64,000 nucleotides of DNA from NCBI RefSeq assembly GCF_016462945.1, contig NZ_JAEMSG010000001.1, forward strand, positions 1-64,000, written 5' to 3'. A model generated the notes under the pieces. It did no database searches. It saw only the letters and a list, made by a program, of their open reading frames with translations, and was not told where the DNA came from. The stretch comes from Mycolicibacterium sp. (GTDB taxonomy: Bacteria > Actinomycetota > Actinomycetes > Mycobacteriales > Mycobacteriaceae). Numbering within the stretch: the stretch's first letter is position 1; every line of letters begins with the position of its first letter. Shown piece after piece: positions 14,930 through 26,896 of this stretch. A program made the translations under genes and the position numbers.

Positions 14930-15325
14930 ATGTACTACCTCCCCCCGGACGAGCTGGGCGAGACTAACCGCGTGCACCTGGTGACGGCGGTTCAGGCGAT
15001 GGCGATGTTCATCGCGATGCTGGCCGTGTCAGTGGTCGGTGCGCTGGGGGCACGGCTCTTGCCGGACACCGCAATCGCCTACTTCGGGCTGGTGCCTCTC
15101 CTGCTGGGCATACGGGCAGCCTGGGTGGCCTGGCGGCGCCGCAGGGACGACCAGGACGACCAGGAAGTGGGCGGTCGCGCCGGTCTTGGGACAGCAACGG
15201 TGGCCGCCGTGACGTTCGCCAACGGGGGCGACAACATCGGTGTCTACGTTCCCGTTTTCGCCGTCGCCGGCCCTTCGGGCATGCCTGCCTATGTGATCGC
15301 TTTTCTCCTCGGGGTCGGCTTGGCC
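14930..15325 (+). pseudogene. cadD-type transporter fragment, copy 1
   Basis: The reading frame gives AVSVVGALGARLLPDTAIAYFGLVPLLLGIRAAWVAWRRRRDD, then TFANGGDNIGVYVPVFA and a helix FLLGVGLAV, the middle of a CadD-type cadmium-resistance transporter. About 60 N-terminal residues and the C-terminal helices are absent. At about 15325 the frame runs into antisense sequence of another broken gene, so the track ORF to 15805 is an artefact. A second fragment of the same family is at 20147. Confidence 0.7.
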
Positions 15326-15332
15326 GTGCGGG

Positions 15333-15560
15333 TCGGGGGCGGGTGCCCGCACGGCTTTGAGTGCGTGGTCGATCTTGCCGTCGATGAATCCCCACCCGGT
15401 CGGGTCCATGGGCTGCGCCCTGTCCCGGGCGTCATCCCACGCCGATTTGAGGTCGGTGATGCAGGCGACCGCACCGGCTTGGTCGCCGGCCTGCACTGTG
15501 GTGAAGGTGTCGGTCACGATGGTGCGGAACGCGGTCACGTCGGCTGGCGGAACTTCGCGC
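15333..15560 (-). pseudogene. Fragment of an uncharacterised mycobacterial protein
   Basis: The minus strand encodes DVTAFRTIVTDTFTTVQAGDQAGAVACITDLKSAWDD and DPTGWGFIDGKIDHALKAVRAP, a helical pattern I recognise from small mycobacterial proteins of unknown function. Both ends are cut: the start is joined to cutinase sequence and the end to the antisense of the cadD fragment. No function is assigned. Confidence 0.5.
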
Positions 15561-15589
15561 TCGCCGCTTGGCCGGACGGCGTTGCGGTG

Positions 15590-15705
15590 ACCACCGGACG
15601 GGCTTCCGAAAAATGCGACGGCGGCGATGTGATCGCGCGCGAAGATCACCTCGACGTTCGGGCACGGGTCAGCGGTGGCGGTGGGAACGCCGATGGGTCC
15701 ACTCA
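15590..15705 (-). pseudogene. Cutinase gene remnant with internal deletion
   Basis: The minus strand reads TADPCPNVEVIFAR, the N-terminal strand of mature actinobacterial cutinases, directly followed by DHIAAVAFFGSPSG, a segment that normally lies about 100 residues further on, just after the catalytic serine region. The GxSxG nucleophile stretch between them is missing, as are the signal peptide and the C-terminus. A broken esterase gene. Confidence 0.55.
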
Positions 15706-15801
15706 GCTAAGCCACGGCCGTCACGACCGTGGCATAGCTGATGCGACGGGATGCCCGGGAGGCTCATGTGGCTGTGCCCTCCCGGGCCGTCCTGACCGCC
15801 G

Positions 15802-16089
15802 CTAGCGTGGGCCTACACCAATGGGGCCGACCGGTCCCGCAACGGGTCCGAGGCCACCAACCCCGACAGGTCCGACCGGTCCGAGGATCGGATCGGGCCC
15901 GACGCCGATGGGGCCGGCCGGGCCGAGGATCGGCATGCACGAATTCGTCACAGCGTCCCAGTACAGGGTGGCGGGATCGCACCAGTCAGCGTGGCTCACC
16001 GCGGGTGCTGCGAGTGCGGTCAGCGGGATGGCTGCCAACGCGAATGCGAACGCGCCGAGTGCACGGTTGAACTGTGACCGGGTCTTCAT
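15802..16089 (-). CDS. Small secreted protein with Gly-Pro-Val collagen-like tail
   Basis: From the ATG at 16089 the 95-residue product has a signal peptide (MKTRSQFNRALGAFAFALAAIPLTALAAPAVSHA), a short Cys-containing head (DWCDPATLYWDAVTNSCMP), and a tail of repeated GPxGPxGVG units (ILGPAGPIGVGPDPILGPVGPVGVGGLGPVAGPVGPIGVGPR). The two cysteines can form a disulfide outside the cell. The track start at 16200 adds a non-signal extension and is unlikely. A GAGATGAGATCC purine-rich stretch precedes the ATG. Function unknown; the tail suggests an extended surface-exposed segment. Confidence 0.7.
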   Translation of the reverse strand: MKTRSQFNRALGAFAFALAAIPLTALAAPAVSHADWCDPATLYWDAVTNSCMPILGPAGPIGVGPDPILGPVGPVGVGGLGPVAGPVGPIGVGPR

Positions 16090-20146: not shown

Positions 20147-20260
20147 GTTGGGACAGCGACGGTGGCCGCCGTGACGTTCGCCAACGGGGGCGACAACATC
20201 GGTGTCTACGTTCCCGTATTCGCGATCGCCGGACCTTCGGGCATGCCTGCCTACGAGACG
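20147..20260 (+). pseudogene. cadD-type transporter fragment, copy 2
   Basis: About 105 bases match 15185-15292 with only a handful of differences and encode VAAVTFANGGDNIGVYVPVFAIAGPSGMPAY, the conserved loop and helix of CadD transporters. The sequence on either side does not continue the gene. The differences between the two copies mean that they come from two diverged cadD genes, not from a fresh duplication. Confidence 0.7.
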
Positions 20261-20297
20261 CTTTTCTCATCGGGGCTGCGGCCTCAGCGTCAACTCC

Positions 20298-20708
20298 CTA
20301 TCGTTGCCCAGCCACCGGAGGCACAGGCGTTGTTGAGGCCGGCGTCGAGCTCTTCTCTACGCCGGGTCCCATACCGGGCATCCCGCCAGGCCCCATGCTC
20401 CCAGGCATCTCACCGGGCCCCATGCCGCCCTGTCCCATTTCTCCGGGCTGCTTCTTCATCATCGGGCAGCAGCCGCCCATCGGGGCGCCGGGTTGCATCT
20501 GGCCACCCTGTGGGCCTCGGTGCCACCCATAGCCGCCCGTGGCGCGGGCCGCGAAGAAGCCAGAAAAGAAAACGACCCCGACGATTAACAGGACCCCGGC
20601 GACGATGCCCACCCAGGCAAGGGCGCGGTAGAGCCGGCTGTTTCGGTGAGCATCCTCGGTGGCGGCCACCGGCGTGAGGATAGTTGTGGTTTCTGAAGAT
20701 TCGGTCAT
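20298..20708 (-). CDS. Small membrane protein with Met/Gly/Pro-rich outer tail, metal cluster
   Basis: 136 residues: a short cytoplasmic head, one membrane helix (ALAWVGIVAGVLLIVGVVFFSGFFAA) and an extracellular tail rich in Met, Gly and Pro (GGCCPMMKKQPGEMGQGGMGPGEMPGSMGPGGMPGMGPG). The CC pair and MxxM spacing are typical of copper-binding tails. It faces away from the two-component genes and shares their intergenic region, which carries two copies of the 17-bp direct repeat. Likely a copper-responsive membrane protein; no enzymatic domain. Confidence 0.65.
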   Translation of the reverse strand: MTESSETTTILTPVAATEDAHRNSRLYRALAWVGIVAGVLLIVGVVFFSGFFAARATGGYGWHRGPQGGQMQPGAPMGGCCPMMKKQPGEMGQGGMGPGEMPGSMGPGGMPGMGPGVEKSSTPASTTPVPPVAGQR

Positions 20709-20851: not shown

Positions 20852-20868
20852 TCAAGATTTACTCAAGA
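20852..20868 (+). promoter_or_regulatory. Metal-cluster direct repeat, copy A
   Basis: TCAAGATTTACTCAAGA holds two CAAGA half-sites whose starts are 11 bp apart, the spacing OmpR-type response regulators use. It matches copy B at 14 of 17 positions. Located 144 bp from the start of the leftward membrane-protein gene. Confidence 0.55.
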
Positions 20869-21122: not shown

Positions 21123-21139
21123 TGAAGATTCGCTCAAGA
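21123..21139 (+). promoter_or_regulatory. Metal-cluster direct repeat, copy B
   Basis: TGAAGATTCGCTCAAGA, half-sites GAAGA and CAAGA 11 bp apart, 36 bp upstream of the response-regulator start. The position suits autoregulation by the encoded OmpR-type regulator. Confidence 0.6.
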
Positions 21140-21175
21140 CGCAGCACCTGCGCGGCGACACGGCACGATGAAGGC

Positions 21176-21916
21176 ATGGATCTCATCTCCGAGTTCGCTT
21201 CCGGCATTACCGACCTGGGCTATCGCGCCCTGGTGGTCGACGACGAGGCGCCACTGGCCGACGTAGTCGCCAGCTATCTCCGTCGCGACCATTTCGCGGT
21301 CACCGTGTGCCACACCGGGGCCGAGGCATTGGCGGTGGCACGGGAGGTCGATCCCGATGTGGTGGTACTCGATCTGGGGTTGCCGGGAATCGACGGGTTG
21401 GAGGTGTGCCGGCAGTTGCGGACGTTTTCCGACGCCTATGTGGTGATGCTGACCGCGCGCGACACCGAGATGGACACCATCGTCGGCCTGTCAGTGGGGG
21501 CCGACGACTACGTGACCAAACCGTTCAGTCCCCGGGAACTGGTCGCGAGAATCAGGGCGATGCTGCGACGACCCCGCACCGTCGGCGCGCCGGCCGCAGA
21601 AGCGGCGCTCCCCGCGCGTGCGTTCGGCCCGCTGTCGATCGCCATCGCCAGCCGCCAGGTGTTCCTCGACGACGCGCTGATCCCCTTGACCCGCACCGAG
21701 TTCGACATCCTCGCCGCGCTGTCCTCGCGACCCGGCGTGGTGTGGAGCCGCCGCCAACTCATCGACGCCGTATGGGGCGAACCCTGGGTAGGCAACGATC
21801 ACCTCGTCGACGTCCACGTCGGGCACCTGCGGCACAAACTCGCCGACGACCCGGCCGACCCGAGGTTCGTCTTCACCGTCCGAGGCGTGGGCTATCGGAT
21901 GGGCAGCGGCGAGTGA
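21176..21916 (+). CDS. OmpR-family response regulator
   Basis: 246 residues. The receiver domain has acidic pocket residues Asp22 and Asp23, phosphoacceptor Asp66 (VVVLDLGLPG), Thr93 and Lys115 (VTKPFSPREL). The C-terminal winged helix matches OmpR/PhoB (TRTEFDILAALSSRPGVVWSRRQLIDAVWG, ending FVFTVRGVGYRMG). The ATG at 21176 gives the expected length; the track ORF adds an unlikely 59-residue extension. Its stop overlaps the kinase GTG by four bases. Being flanked by CopZ and DUF305 genes, it probably responds to copper or a related metal, and the 17-bp direct repeats nearby are its likely targets. Confidence 0.87.
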   Translation: MDLISEFASGITDLGYRALVVDDEAPLADVVASYLRRDHFAVTVCHTGAEALAVAREVDPDVVVLDLGLPGIDGLEVCRQLRTFSDAYVVMLTARDTEMDTIVGLSVGADDYVTKPFSPRELVARIRAMLRRPRTVGAPAAEAALPARAFGPLSIAIASRQVFLDDALIPLTRTEFDILAALSSRPGVVWSRRQLIDAVWGEPWVGNDHLVDVHVGHLRHKLADDPADPRFVFTVRGVGYRMGSGE

Positions 21917-23070
21917 CCGCGCACACGCCGCCGAACGGCTTCGGGATGCGCCGGCGGCTGCTGCTCGCCCAGACTCTGGTGCTACTCGCGGGCGGTGTCA
22001 CCACCTGGTTGGTCGCTCTGATGGTCGGGCCGGCGTTGTTCCGTGAGCATCTGCACCGGGCCGGGGTGGCGCACGACTCTAACGAGCAGTTCCACGCCGA
22101 ACAGGCCTACCAGCACGCCACCGCAATATCCATCGCGGTGGCGATCACAGTGGCGGCGTTGACCGCGTTCGTGGTCACCGCCTACCTGAGCCGACGCCTG
22201 CAACGCTCCGTCACTGAATTGTCGGCAGCGGCGTCCGCAGTCGCCGAGGGCCGCTACGACATCAGGGTCGCCCCTCCCCGGCTGGGTGACGAATTCGATG
22301 AACTGACAATGGCTTTCAATGGAATGGCCCAACGCCTCCAAGCGGTGGAGTCCACCCGCCGACAAGTGTTCGGCGACCTCGCCCACGAGATCCGCACCCC
22401 GGTATCGGTGCTGGAGGCCTACCTAGAAGCCGTTGAGGACGGGGTGAAGACCCTCGACCCACACACCATCGCACTGCTGCGCGAGCAGACCGGTCGACTC
22501 GTGCGGTTCGCCGCCGACGCCGCCTCCCTGGCCCAGGCTGAAGAAGCTCACTTCGCCATCGCAACGGCATGGGTAGACACCCAGGAGCTCGTCGGCGCGG
22601 TGAGCGCCGCAGTCGCCGACCGCTACGCCGCGAAACATGTCACCCTGACCACCGGGGTGAGCACGCCGGTCCGACTGTGGGCCGACCGCCAACGACTGAC
22701 CCAGGTACTGAGCAACCTGCTCGACAACGCTTTGCGTCACACTCCCGGCGGCGGTCATGTCACACTCACCGCCGCCCGAAACGGCACCGACGCGGTCTTC
22801 ACCGTCGCCGACGACGGCGAAGGCATCACCGCCGAACACGTACCGCACATCTTCGAACGGTTCTACCGCGCCGATTCCGCCCGCGATCGAGGCCGAGGAG
22901 GCTCCGGCATTGGACTGGCCATCGCCAAAGCACTGACCGAGGCCCACTGCGGCCACATCAGTGTGGCCAGCCGTGGACCCGGTCACGGCAGCACCTTCAC
23001 CGTGACGATGCCGATCCAATCGCCGACGGTAATTCGGGATCAGCGCGAGGGCGCTGCGACCAGTTCGTAG
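21913..23070 (+). CDS. Sensor histidine kinase paired with the upstream regulator
   Basis: 385 residues: membrane helix (LLLAQTLVLLAGGVTTWLVALMVG), a short outer loop of about 30 residues, second helix (ISIAVAITVAALTAFVVTAYL), HAMP linker, HisKA box FGDLAHEIRTPVSVLEAY with His158, N box (LTQVLSNLLDNALRHTPGGG) and G boxes (VADDGEGI, GGSGIGLAIA). The sensing loop is short and holds three His (HLHRAGVAHDSNEQFH), possible metal ligands. The GTG at 21913 overlaps the regulator stop. The last 31 bases overlap the converging copZ-like gene. Confidence 0.86.
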   Translation: MTAHTPPNGFGMRRRLLLAQTLVLLAGGVTTWLVALMVGPALFREHLHRAGVAHDSNEQFHAEQAYQHATAISIAVAITVAALTAFVVTAYLSRRLQRSVTELSAAASAVAEGRYDIRVAPPRLGDEFDELTMAFNGMAQRLQAVESTRRQVFGDLAHEIRTPVSVLEAYLEAVEDGVKTLDPHTIALLREQTGRLVRFAADAASLAQAEEAHFAIATAWVDTQELVGAVSAAVADRYAAKHVTLTTGVSTPVRLWADRQRLTQVLSNLLDNALRHTPGGGHVTLTAARNGTDAVFTVADDGEGITAEHVPHIFERFYRADSARDRGRGGSGIGLAIAKALTEAHCGHISVASRGPGHGSTFTVTMPIQSPTVIRDQREGAATSS

Positions 23071-23278: not shown

Positions 23279-23944
23279 CTACAGTGAGGCCAGGATCTGG
23301 TTCATGGTGTCGATCTCCGTCTGCTGGCTTTCCAGGATCGAATTAGCCAGCGCGACAGCAGCAGGCGACTGACCGTTCTTGGCCTCACCCTGGGCCATGG
23401 TCAGCGCACCCTGGTGGTGCTTGACCATCCCGGTCAGGAAGAGCTTGCTGGCCTCCACGCCCTGGGCGTTCTTCAACGCATCCATCTGAGCTGCCGACAT
23501 CATCCCGTCCATCCCGGACATGCCACCCATGCCCGGCATATCGTCCATTCCCGGCATTCCGCTCATGCTCGGCATGCTGCTCATGCCGCCCATGCCCCAC
23601 TGGCTCATCCAGCCCTGCATCTGCTCGATCTCCGGTCCCTGGGCGGCCTTGATCTGCTGAGCCAGGTCGACCACTCGCGGGTCGATGCCCTGCTTGGCCA
23701 AGATGATGTCGCTCATCTCAATAGCCTGCTGATGATGCGCGATCATCATGTGGGCGAAGTCCATGTCGGCCTGGTTGTGTGCCGCTGCCGACGCCGCGGA
23801 CGAGGTCGCGGCCGTCGAGGGGGCTACCGATGACGTCGCTTCCTTGGTCGCGGAATTACTACACGCCCCGATGACGGCGACCGCGGCCAACGCGGCCACC
23901 CCGGTCGCCACAGTCCTTGTCTTGTTCACAAAAGATCCCTTCAT
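23279..23944 (-). CDS. DUF305 lipoprotein with Met-rich copper-binding loop
   Basis: From the ATG at 23944 a lipoprotein signal (VATGVAALAAVAVIGAC) leads into a Ser/Ala linker and a DUF305 domain of the ferritin-like type: MDFAHMMIAHHQQAIEMSD and LTGMVKHHQGALTMAQGEA carry the paired His. Between them is a Met-rich insert (MGGMSSMPSMSGMPGMDDMPGMGGMSGMDGMM) with many MxxM units suited to Cu(I). It is probably an outer-face copper sequestering or transfer protein, made with CopZ from the promoter carrying repeat copy C. Confidence 0.86.
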   Translation of the reverse strand: MKGSFVNKTRTVATGVAALAAVAVIGACSNSATKEATSSVAPSTAATSSAASAAAHNQADMDFAHMMIAHHQQAIEMSDIILAKQGIDPRVVDLAQQIKAAQGPEIEQMQGWMSQWGMGGMSSMPSMSGMPGMDDMPGMGGMSGMDGMMSAAQMDALKNAQGVEASKLFLTGMVKHHQGALTMAQGEAKNGQSPAAVALANSILESQQTEIDTMNQILASL

Positions 23945-24018: not shown

Positions 24019-24035
24019 TGAAGATTCGATAAAGA
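24019..24035 (+). promoter_or_regulatory. Metal-cluster direct repeat, copy C
   Basis: TGAAGATTCGATAAAGA matches copy B at 15 of 17 positions and keeps the 11-bp spaced half-sites. It lies between the divergent DUF305 and L,D-transpeptidase genes and could control both. Confidence 0.55.
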
Positions 24036-24118
24036 ACGGCGTCCTCGGCCACGGCCTGGGGTTTGCGGTGCCAGATTTGATGGTGAGCCACGTGTCAGCA
24101 TCGGAGGGGGACACCCCC

Positions 24119-24166
24119 ATGAGTACTACTATTTCGACCGGCTTGCACTTGTTGTTCGGGGGGTGA
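24119..24166 (+). CDS. 15-codon leader ORF before the L,D-transpeptidase
   Basis: ATG at 24119 follows a strong GGAGGGGG ribosome-binding site and encodes MSTTISTGLHLLFGG, ending in TGA at 24166 that overlaps the GTG at 24163. The ribosome-binding site is part of GGGGG-ACA-CCCCC, a possible 5-bp hairpin that would hide it. The arrangement suggests translational coupling or control of the transpeptidase. No homologue known to me. Confidence 0.4.
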   Translation: MSTTISTGLHLLFGG

Positions 24167-25524
24167 CGGTTTCCATGTCCACGGCGCTGCGGCGCAACAT
24201 GCTGCTCGCGATCCATCTGGCTGTCCTGCTCGTCATGGTGATCGCCATGACCGGGGCACTGAGCTGCCCGCCGCGGCTGTGCGCGCACGACGCGGACTCG
24301 GCGCCCGCGACTTCCAGCGTGGCACCGCCGCCGGTTCCGGTCGCGCTGTCGATGAACCCCGGACCCGACGCCCAGAACGTCGACCCGCTCGCACCGGTCA
24401 CCGTGACCGCGACCGCAGGCAGCCTGCTCACCGTTCAGATGGTCAATGACGTCGGCAAACCGGTCGAGGGCGTCACAACACCGGACAACATGGTGTGGAA
24501 ACCCACCGTGCCGCTCGGGTACGGCCGCACCTACACCGTCACCGCCACCGGGCGCGGCACCGACGAGACGACCCGCGCACTGGTGTCGACGTTCACCACG
24601 CTGGTGCCCGGCAACCAGACCGCACTGCGGCTGACCACCACGGGCAACCAGGATCTGCTCGAGGGCGGCACGTACGGCATCGGGACTGTCGTCGTGGCGC
24701 GCTTCGACGAACCGATCCCCGACCGCGCCGCGGCCCAACGCGCGCTTCGGGTCACCACCAGCCCGCCCGTCGAGGGTGCGTGGACGTGGGTCAATGACGC
24801 GACCGCCCACTGGCGGCCACAGAACTACTACGCCCCGGGCACCACTGTCACGGTCGCGGCCAACATCTACGGCGTCCCCCTCGGTGAGGGTCTCTACGGG
24901 CAAGCCGACACCGGCGTGAGGTTCCGCATCGGTGACGCGCACATCTCGATCGCCAACGACATCACCAAACAGGTCAGCGTGTTCAGCAACGGACAACTGA
25001 TGCGCACCATGCCGACTTCCATGGGCATGGGCGGCAGCGAGACCATCGGCGGGCGCACGATCAGCTTCTGGACCCAGCCCGGGACCTACACCGTGATGGA
25101 CAAAGCCAACCCCGTCGTCATGGACTCCTCGACCTACGGGCTGCCGATCAACTCCCGCCTGGGCTACAAAGAGACAATCAACTGGGCCACCCGCATCAGC
25201 ACCGACGGCATCTACCTTCACCAACTCGAGGACACCGTCTGGGCGCAGGGCAACACCAACGTCTCCCACGGCTGTATAAACCTCAGTGCTGAGAACGCCC
25301 GCTGGTTCTACGACTTCTCCCAACCCGGCGACGTCGTCGAGGTCCGTGACACCGGCGGCGCCCCGCTGGAGCTCTGGCAGAACGGCGACTGGAGCGTTCC
25401 CTGGTCGCAGTGGCTGGCCGGCAGCGCAGCCGATCCGACTGCCGCCCAACAGGTTCCGGCACCAGCCGCCGGCGATCCCCCTTCACTCGGAAAGCAGGAA
25501 GCCGATGAGCAACCACCACGGTGA
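24163..25524 (+). CDS. L,D-transpeptidase in the metal cluster (LdtMt2-like)
   Basis: 453 residues: membrane-anchor or signal helix (MLLAIHLAVLLVMVIAMTGALSC), two Ig-like domains (about 60-150 and 155-250), and a YkuD domain with HQLEDTVWAQGNTNVSHGCINLS, carrying the catalytic His and Cys of the HxnSHGCxN motif. It makes 3-3 cross-links in peptidoglycan and is penicillin-insensitive. Copper is reported to inhibit such enzymes, which makes its place in a copper-type cluster notable. Start is GTG 24163 (overlaps the leader ORF) or ATG 24175. It overlaps the next gene by 20 bp. Confidence 0.86.
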   Translation: MTVSMSTALRRNMLLAIHLAVLLVMVIAMTGALSCPPRLCAHDADSAPATSSVAPPPVPVALSMNPGPDAQNVDPLAPVTVTATAGSLLTVQMVNDVGKPVEGVTTPDNMVWKPTVPLGYGRTYTVTATGRGTDETTRALVSTFTTLVPGNQTALRLTTTGNQDLLEGGTYGIGTVVVARFDEPIPDRAAAQRALRVTTSPPVEGAWTWVNDATAHWRPQNYYAPGTTVTVAANIYGVPLGEGLYGQADTGVRFRIGDAHISIANDITKQVSVFSNGQLMRTMPTSMGMGGSETIGGRTISFWTQPGTYTVMDKANPVVMDSSTYGLPINSRLGYKETINWATRISTDGIYLHQLEDTVWAQGNTNVSHGCINLSAENARWFYDFSQPGDVVEVRDTGGAPLELWQNGDWSVPWSQWLAGSAADPTAAQQVPAPAAGDPPSLGKQEADEQPPR

Positions 25525-25966
25525 CCGGCCCGCGAGCCGACGCCCATTGCTGGTGATCGCCGCGTTGATCGCGGTCGGTGCGGCCCTGGTCGCCGTCGCG
25601 GTCGCCACCGGCGCGCTGCGGCTGGGACACTCCGCCGACTCGGCCCCCTCTGCCGAGCAGTTAGCCCAACAGCATTGCCAGGCCGAGGTTCTCAAGCGGT
25701 TGGTCTCCCCCGACAAAGCCACCATCTCTGATGTCCATACCGAGACCAGCACCCTCGACGTTGATGGCCGGGACTTTTCGTCGCTGAACACCAGCGAGCC
25801 ACTCAAGGGCATCGACGTCTCGCGGATCACCGTGCTCAACGTTGCGGGGGTGGCCAACGCACCCAGCGAAGTCGGCTCCACGATCCAGGACCGCTTCGAC
25901 TGCCGCGCCTATTTCGTCGACGGCGCGCTTGCTCACACCCTGGTCGTTTTCGACCACGGCCACTGA
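25505..25966 (+). CDS. Membrane-anchored protein of unknown function, co-expressed with the L,D-transpeptidase
   Basis: 153 residues: a basic head, one membrane helix (PLLVIAALIAVGAALVAVAVATGAL) and an exported domain with two cysteines (QQHCQAEV and DRFDCRAYF), probably a disulfide, and strands typical of a small alpha+beta fold (TISDVHTETSTLDVDG, AYFVDGALAHTLVVFDHGH). The ATG at 25505 overlaps the transpeptidase gene by 20 bases, and the genes are surely one operon. I do not recognise the family. An accessory protein for the transpeptidase is an inference from position only. Confidence 0.65.
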   Translation: MSNHHGDRPASRRPLLVIAALIAVGAALVAVAVATGALRLGHSADSAPSAEQLAQQHCQAEVLKRLVSPDKATISDVHTETSTLDVDGRDFSSLNTSEPLKGIDVSRITVLNVAGVANAPSEVGSTIQDRFDCRAYFVDGALAHTLVVFDHGH

Positions 25967-26044: not shown

Positions 26045-26896
26045 TCAGTCGTCGTGTTGATGTTGATGACCGTCAGCTTCGAGATCTGAATCCGGCGCGG
26101 CCGGCTGCTGTTGGGCAGGCTCAGGTTGAGTAGCGGGTGCCACCGCGGCCGGAGCCGGCCGGGTCACCCCGCCGGCTTCTTGAAGACCACCATCGGTATC
26201 GAGCGCCATATCGGTCACCGGTAGGCCCGCCTCCGGTGTCGGGGCGGGCGACGGCTTCATCACCCCGGCCGCAGGCGGAGACTGAGGCTGAGGCTGCGAA
26301 GGATGATGACCGCCCTCCATGTGCGCACCACCGTCCATGTGTGCCTCATGCGTAGCGTGACCCTGCGCCTCGACCGCACCACCGGGGTGATGATCGTGGT
26401 GACCCTGCAGGGTGGCCGCCAAACCCACCGTCACCGCTCCAGCCACTATGGTGTTAGCGCCCAGCAGTACAAATGCCCTTCCGAAACCCGACACCTTTTC
26501 TGGCTCATACTTTCGAGACCACGCCCACACTGAGCCCATGACGACGTAGCACTGCAGCAACAGCACCGCGATGCCCGCAGCCCCCGCGGCTTCAGGCTGT
26601 CCCGCGGACGGCCCCACCGGCAGTCCTGCGGTGCAGGACATGACCCACAACGCGGCCGCACCCACATTGGCTGCAATCCCGGCCGCGAAAACCACGGCGC
26701 CCGGCCGCGACCACGCGACAAAGGCCCAAATCAGTTGGAACGCCGCCAGTGCCGCAAAGGACAACCCAGACGGCAACCAATCCCGCCAGTGCATCGGCGT
26801 GACGGCGAAATGAATCACGGCCGCACCCAGCGAAGCGACCGCCGCACAGCGTGCAGCCAGACGGCTGTCGGTCTTCGTTGTATCTCTGGTCGCCAT
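26045..26896 (-). CDS. Membrane protein with His-rich cytosolic or outer tail
   Basis: 283 residues. The first 170 hold about five membrane helices with conserved-looking HFAVTPMHWRDWLPSGLSFA at the start, a pattern common in mycobacterial integral proteins of metal-resistance loci. The last 110 are low-complexity and rich in His, Pro and Gln: GHHDHHPGGAVEAQGHATHEAHMDGGAHMEGGHH and a final DGHQHQHDD. Such tails bind zinc, nickel or copper. No transporter signature is seen, so the role (metal storage, sensing or transport) is open. Confidence 0.7.
   Translation of the reverse strand: MATRDTTKTDSRLAARCAAVASLGAAVIHFAVTPMHWRDWLPSGLSFAALAAFQLIWAFVAWSRPGAVVFAAGIAANVGAAALWVMSCTAGLPVGPSAGQPEAAGAAGIAVLLLQCYVVMGSVWAWSRKYEPEKVSGFGRAFVLLGANTIVAGAVTVGLAATLQGHHDHHPGGAVEAQGHATHEAHMDGGAHMEGGHHPSQPQPQSPPAAGVMKPSPAPTPEAGLPVTDMALDTDGGLQEAGGVTRPAPAAVAPATQPEPAQQQPAAPDSDLEADGHQHQHDD

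Follow-up and report, generated by a model that had tools for sequence, protein, structure and literature searches.

Probable deletion scar in front of an L,D-transpeptidase operon within a CopRS-like metal cluster of Mycolicibacterium

The window, a stretch of 64,000 nucleotides from Mycolicibacterium sp. (contig NZ_JAEMSG010000001.1, positions 1 to 64,000), contains a metal cluster that includes an L,D-transpeptidase (LDT) gene (Table 1). The genes of a two-component system are followed on the opposite strand by those of a CopZ-like heavy-metal-associated (HMA) protein and a CopM-family protein, and then by a short open reading frame (ORF), the LDT gene and a gene for a protein here called the partner. 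The His-rich membrane protein encoded after them has no match in Pfam or NCBIfam. Beyond it are genes for an MFS protein, a CDF transporter and an ArsR-family regulator. On the other side of the cluster, an ORF at positions 14930-15805 partially matches CadD-like cadmium transporters (PF03596), and a second short stretch at approximately 20162-20270 encodes nearly the same peptide (TFANGGDNIGVYVPVFA). The two are probably a duplicated, broken gene.

Table 1 Positions of the features of the LDT locus in the window
Feature	Position	Strand	Basis and remarks
Weaker CopR-like direct repeat, two mismatches	20852..20868	+	Pattern search; 5' of the minus-strand gene 20298-20708
CopR-like direct repeat TGAAGATTCgcTCAAGACGC	21123..21142	+	Before the response regulator; autoregulation predicted
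OmpR-family response regulator	21170..21916	+	PF00072 and PF00486
Sensor histidine kinase (HAMP, HisKA, HATPase_c)	21910..23028	+	Pfam
CopZ-like HMA protein, 76 aa	23040..23270	-	PF00403
CopM-family DUF305 protein	23279..23944	-	PF03713; NCBIfam CopM, 105 bits (cut-off 90)
CopR-like direct repeat TGAAGATTCgaTAAAGAACG	24019..24038	+	Promoter element of DUF302 genes in relatives
Ribosome-binding site GGAGGGGG	24103..24110	+	DUF302-derived; alignment with 5' UTRs of DUF302 genes
Inverted repeat GGGGG-ACA-CCCCC	24106..24118	+	No conservation in DUF302 relatives, no folding signal
Hybrid 15-codon ORF ('leader')	24119..24166	+	About 6 first codons from DUF302, about 10 last from MP451; probable deletion scar
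LDT, LdtMt2-like accessory paralogue	24163..25524	+	Big_10 and YkuD domains; tree; alternative start ATG 24175
Partner protein, 153 aa	25505..25966	+	Predicted N-terminal membrane anchor and extracytoplasmic alpha+beta domain
His-rich membrane protein	26045..26896	-	Recurs at the cluster end in relatives (synteny)

The LDT has the domain architecture of LdtMt2, with a Big_10 domain (E=9e-50) and a YkuD domain (E=4e-20). Its best match in the PDB is LdtMt2 (5k69), and the alignment with this structure places the catalytic cysteine in an intact SHGC motif. The genome from which the window is derived contains seven YkuD matches. One other LDT of this genome, L004, is 50% identical to the LDT of the window and also has LdtMt2 as its closest PDB match, and therefore the LDT of the window is an accessory paralogue. 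Orthology of the LDT to L004 was rejected, because in a tree of 39 LDTs those linked to a partner gene form a single, separate group (100/100). All LDTs that are at least 71% identical to that of the window adjoin a partner gene, although some of the partner genes are frameshifted or partial, and none of the LDTs that are at most 69% identical does. LDT homologues with approximately 60-71% identity are encoded by many Mycobacterium and Rhodococcus plasmids (e.g. NC_005016.1 and NC_018022.1), where they are annotated merely as Ig-like domain proteins. A plasmid origin of the LDT was rejected, since the plasmid homologues reach at most ~71% identity and a homologue of the partner was found on only one plasmid.

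The partner protein has a well-predicted alpha+beta domain and an N-terminal helix of residues 16-35, which is predicted with low confidence and was taken as a membrane anchor. Residues C58 and C133 and the final histidine are invariant. The protein was assigned to no family in Pfam or NCBIfam, and sequence and fold searches of the PDB yielded nothing significant, the best hits being NTF2-like folds with E=0.037. The only other matches, to uncharacterised phage proteins, were weak. The partner gene overlaps the LDT gene by 20 bp (LDT stop codon 25522-25524, partner ATG 25505), as had been noted in the sequence-only reading that preceded this analysis. The same reading had given the LDT a partner of its own. 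The pair is preserved as a clade (100/100), but the strict tie to the LDT does not hold, since many genomes have the partner without an adjacent LDT. Because of this separate occurrence, the partner appears to be a protein of the regulon rather than an obligate LDT subunit. In the loci L120 and L121 (genomes G183 and G347), the partner gene 3' of the LDT is frameshifted, and thus the partner may be dispensable there.

CopR-like direct repeats (boxes) precede both the response regulator and the short ORF in front of the LDT. With up to three mismatches allowed, a search of the genome assembly found TGAAGATTCgaTAAAGAAC at 24019, an exact site, and no further one. With a looser consensus, the window has three sites (20852, 21123 and 24019), whereas 0.09 would be expected. 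The CopR box proven in C. glutamicum is TGAAGATTTgaTGAAGATTT (PMC3140484), and the window boxes are identical to it in 15 and 14 of 20 bases. The tandem TGAAGATTT-like repeat before the regulator and its targets is present as a degenerate match. As in CopRS-type regulons, the cluster encodes an OmpR-family regulator together with a histidine kinase. The box before the regulator is also present in L041, L044, L047, L186, L195 and others, and in relatives boxes are additionally found 5' of DUF302, HMA or partner genes. L047, from the cultured relative Mycolicibacterium rhodesiae JS60, has the LDT-partner pair as well as the cluster with the response regulator and kinase. In L041 and L044, a variant box lies directly 5' of the LDT gene, which indicates that the LDT joined the regulon before the scar described below was formed. 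The earlier proposal of a copper-type regulon is strengthened by the CopR-like repeat, which precedes the LDT as well as the two-component genes and, in relatives, genes of the cluster. Judging from these sequences, the LDT very probably belongs to a CopRS-like regulon. The response regulator is predicted to bind to positions 24019-24038, and we infer copper as the signal from the gene content and the similarity of the boxes.

Other putative operators were observed in related loci. In L128, L130, L036 and the L050-L146 group, the CopR-like box is replaced by a dyad TCTACTATGTNNNTACGTAGA, which resembles the BlaI/CopY operator and is positioned 25-95 bp 5' of the LDT gene. It is possible that this dyad, which precedes many accessory LDT paralogues, mediates control by a beta-lactam or metal repressor. 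In L154, L155 and L158, the box lies before HMA/CopZ-like genes, and a ACCCCCATGGGTATA-like motif between the box and the gene might be the operator of another metal regulator.

The ORF in front of the LDT gene, with the translation MSTTISTGLHLLFGG, had been described as a leader with a strong ribosome-binding site and a stop codon overlapping the GTG start of the LDT gene, and all of these elements are present at 24103-24166. The ribosome-binding site lies directly 5' of the ORF, and the TGA stop codon (24164-24166) shares bases with the GTG at 24163 in the context GTGA. However, the LDT may equally well start at the ATG at 24175. The ribosome-binding site had also been supposed to be hidden in a hairpin. 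The motif exists, with GGGGG at 24106-24110 and CCCCC at 24114-24118 separated by ACA, but a folding signal and conservation are absent. The leader RNA has a folding z-score of 0.38 relative to shuffled sequences, and 128 of the 200 shuffled versions are as stable or more so. Alignment of the 5' regions showed that the hairpin is not kept in DUF302 relatives. GGGGGNNNCCCCC occurs once in the window, which contains 24 all-GC stems of 5 bp with a loop of 3 nt. The hairpin was rejected as a switch of the ribosome-binding site on account of this number of stems and the lack of the hairpin in DUF302 relatives. The short ORF was found in no other genome among those searched. A regulatory leader or attenuator was rejected in view of the lack of both conservation in these genomes and a structure signal. 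For the same reasons, together with the loss of the hairpin in DUF302 relatives, the ORF is read as a scar. It may act at most as a passive translational coupler.

The two ends of the ORF resemble two different genes. A 165-bp query comprising the promoter and the leader matched DUF302 genes (PF03625, E=1.4e-23 for L189), and the promoter, 5' UTR and first codons are 75% identical to those of DUF302 genes over ~137 nt. The DUF302 proteins of relatives begin with MSIAISTSL and the leader with MSTTISTGL. The C-terminal end of the leader, TGLHLLFGG, corresponds to that of MP451, a membrane protein of 451 codons that is encoded directly 5' of the LDT in several relatives and terminates with YTLTGLYLLFGG. 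The last ten codons of the leader agree with the MP451 tail of L045 in 23 of 30 nucleotides, the highest score among 2536 stop-ending 30-mers in the window, the runner-up having 19. With one intact relative as the reference, a hybrid with a DUF302 head and an MP451 tail accounts for 37 of the 48 nucleotides, whereas DUF302 alone accounts for 30 and MP451 alone for 28. Other relatives have a decayed, frame-split 3' relic of MP451 with 41-48% protein identity. In L038-L040 and L119-L121, MP451 is decaying, and what lies between the genes of the kinase and the LDT is a frameshifted 3' remnant of ~60-100 codons. On this comparison, the 15-codon ORF is almost certainly a deletion scar of hybrid DUF302/MP451 origin. 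The dedicated regulatory leader of the sequence-only reading thus gives way to a relic that is unique to this genome among those searched and has no RNA structure signal.

A gene order from which the scar could have been formed is present in locus L186 of the complete genome G387. It contains a box followed by the response regulator and kinase genes, divergent HMA and CopM genes, a box followed by DUF302, and a P-type ATPase gene on the opposite strand. After the ATPase gene there is a further, weaker box and then the series YcnI-141aa-MP451-LDT-partner-YVTN. The intact DUF302 and MP451 genes are on one strand and in the order that the hybrid needs, and joining codon 7 of DUF302 to approximately the tenth-last codon of MP451 deletes 9311 bp and yields the order of the window. 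The LDT gene of L186 starts a few bases past the MP451 stop codon, which indicates that the close coupling is ancestral. Neither DUF302 nor MP451 was found in the genome of the window, a draft of 224 contigs in which such an absence is strong but not absolute. The same searches detected DUF302 in 9 of 12 and MP451 in 10 of 14 genomes chosen as positive controls, some of the MP451 matches being relics. In L195, DUF302 is followed by the partner gene and the LDT gene is lost. In L187, the box is followed by the partner gene, and both DUF302 and LDT are lost. As far as can be judged from these gene orders, the locus readily undergoes deletions of this kind. The junction itself is known from one genome only, and an intermediate form of the event has therefore not been seen.

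The observations can be combined into the probable explanation that the LDT-partner operon was rewired onto a CopR-type promoter by a deletion. The ancestor would have been a CopRS-like copper cluster arranged like L186, from the box and two-component genes, the divergent HMA and CopM genes, the second box with DUF302 and the P-type ATPase to YcnI-141aa-MP451-LDT-partner-YVTN. In the lineage of the window, a deletion would have begun near codon 7 of DUF302 and ended roughly at the tenth codon from the end of MP451, spanning ~9.3 kb if, as borrowed from G387, the ancestor was like that relative. The hybrid ORF would be the remainder, and the operon would now be located behind the promoter and ribosome-binding site of the DUF302 gene. 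Ribosomes loaded there may stop at the TGA at 24164 and initiate anew at the start codon of the LDT gene. In the presence of copper, or of a metal like it, the phosphorylated regulator would bind to the second box and switch on an accessory enzyme of 3-3 cross-linking and its membrane-anchored partner. The LDT in the sister group L128-L130 is preceded by a different dyad instead of the CopR-like box, which counts against this explanation. Whether the outcome is real copper-induced wall remodelling is evenly balanced. As to the functional meaning of an LDT in this regulon, it may be hypothesised that the enzyme replaces other LDTs under copper. A broader and rather doubtful extension is that, in an environmental mycobacterial clade, a CopRS-like system induces a copper-dedicated LDT, which sustains 3-3 cross-linking while copper inhibits the housekeeping LDTs, and that the partner, with its invariant cysteine pair and C-terminal histidine, shields or assists the LDT. 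In the genome of the window, the deletion would then have moved the pair to another of the regulon's promoters.

Two alternatives concern the ORF. It could be a truncated and mutated start of DUF302, with a coincidental match to the MP451 tail, and STSLHSSF is also present in the DUF302 proteins of relatives, which makes DUF302 and MP451 alike near the junction. However, the last 30 nucleotides of the leader agree with MP451 tails in 22-23 positions and with DUF302 starts in 11-15, and its stop codon coincides with that of MP451, directly 5' of the LDT gene as in relatives. A pure DUF302 start was rejected because the tail is much closer to MP451, and we consider it extremely improbable. Hardly more credible is a genuine regulatory leader, either an attenuator or a metal-responsive uORF, governing translation of the LDT. 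The strong ribosome-binding site, the GTGA overlap and a hairpin able to mask the site would suit such an element, but the confinement of the ORF to one of the genomes searched, the folding result and the unconserved hairpin speak against it. Furthermore, the ORF does not contain consecutive codons for an amino acid that could be sensed, and the DUF302-MP451 hybrid accounts for it codon by codon.

The remaining alternatives concern the role and the regulation of the LDT. One is that the LDT has no role in metal stress and is carried in the metal cluster as a passenger, which would fit the plasticity of the locus, in which the LDT and the partner were lost or separated in L187 and L195, and the presence of related LDTs on plasmids. 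This is unlikely, since the partner-linked LDTs are all in one clade and the box directly 5' of the LDT gene in L041 and L044 points to regulon membership predating the scar. A somewhat stronger, though still less likely, alternative is that the operon belongs to a metal or envelope-stress regulon with a signal other than copper, such as zinc, cadmium, silver or general envelope damage. The cluster of the window has a CDF transporter, an ArsR-family regulator and a CadD-like ORF and lacks a copper ATPase. However, CopM, the CopZ-like HMA protein, DUF1775 (YcnI), a CsoR-family regulator and P-type ATPases are encoded in the cluster itself or in related ones, and the box is similar to the one known for the copper-responsive CopR. 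Rewiring of the LDT-partner operon onto the CopR-type promoter is the explanation that we prefer.

LDTs are inhibited by copper (Peters et al. 2018, as cited in PMC6863773 and PMC9302775), and no report of a copper-induced mycobacterial LDT was recognised in a literature search of titles and abstracts. A clade of LDTs that lie in a CopRS-like cluster and are linked to a partner gene offers a testable mycobacterial case of the link between copper and LDTs. The leader illustrates in detail how a coupled micro-ORF resembling a regulatory leader can arise from a deletion. The enzyme shares the Big_10 and YkuD architecture, the SHGC catalytic motif and the similarity to PDB 5k69 with LdtMt2 (LppS, Rv2518c) and related mycobacterial LDTs, but differs from LdtMt2 as an accessory paralogue in a metal cluster, which belongs to a separate, partner-linked clade. 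The cluster resembles the CopRS system of C. glutamicum (PMC3140484) in the OmpR-type regulator and kinase, in the tandem 9-bp repeat, with a linker of 2 bp, that precedes the regulator and divergent targets, and in the HMA protein and P-type ATPase, found here in the cluster or its relatives. In contrast, an LDT is not among the CopR targets listed for C. glutamicum (PMC3140484), and the box is only ~15/20 identical. According to a review (PMC6863773), LdtD of E. coli is also an LDT in a two-component envelope-stress regulon, that of Cpx, which is likewise induced by copper. However, CpxRA is a general envelope-stress system, whereas the LDT of the window has a partner gene of its own and is part of a metal-resistance cluster.
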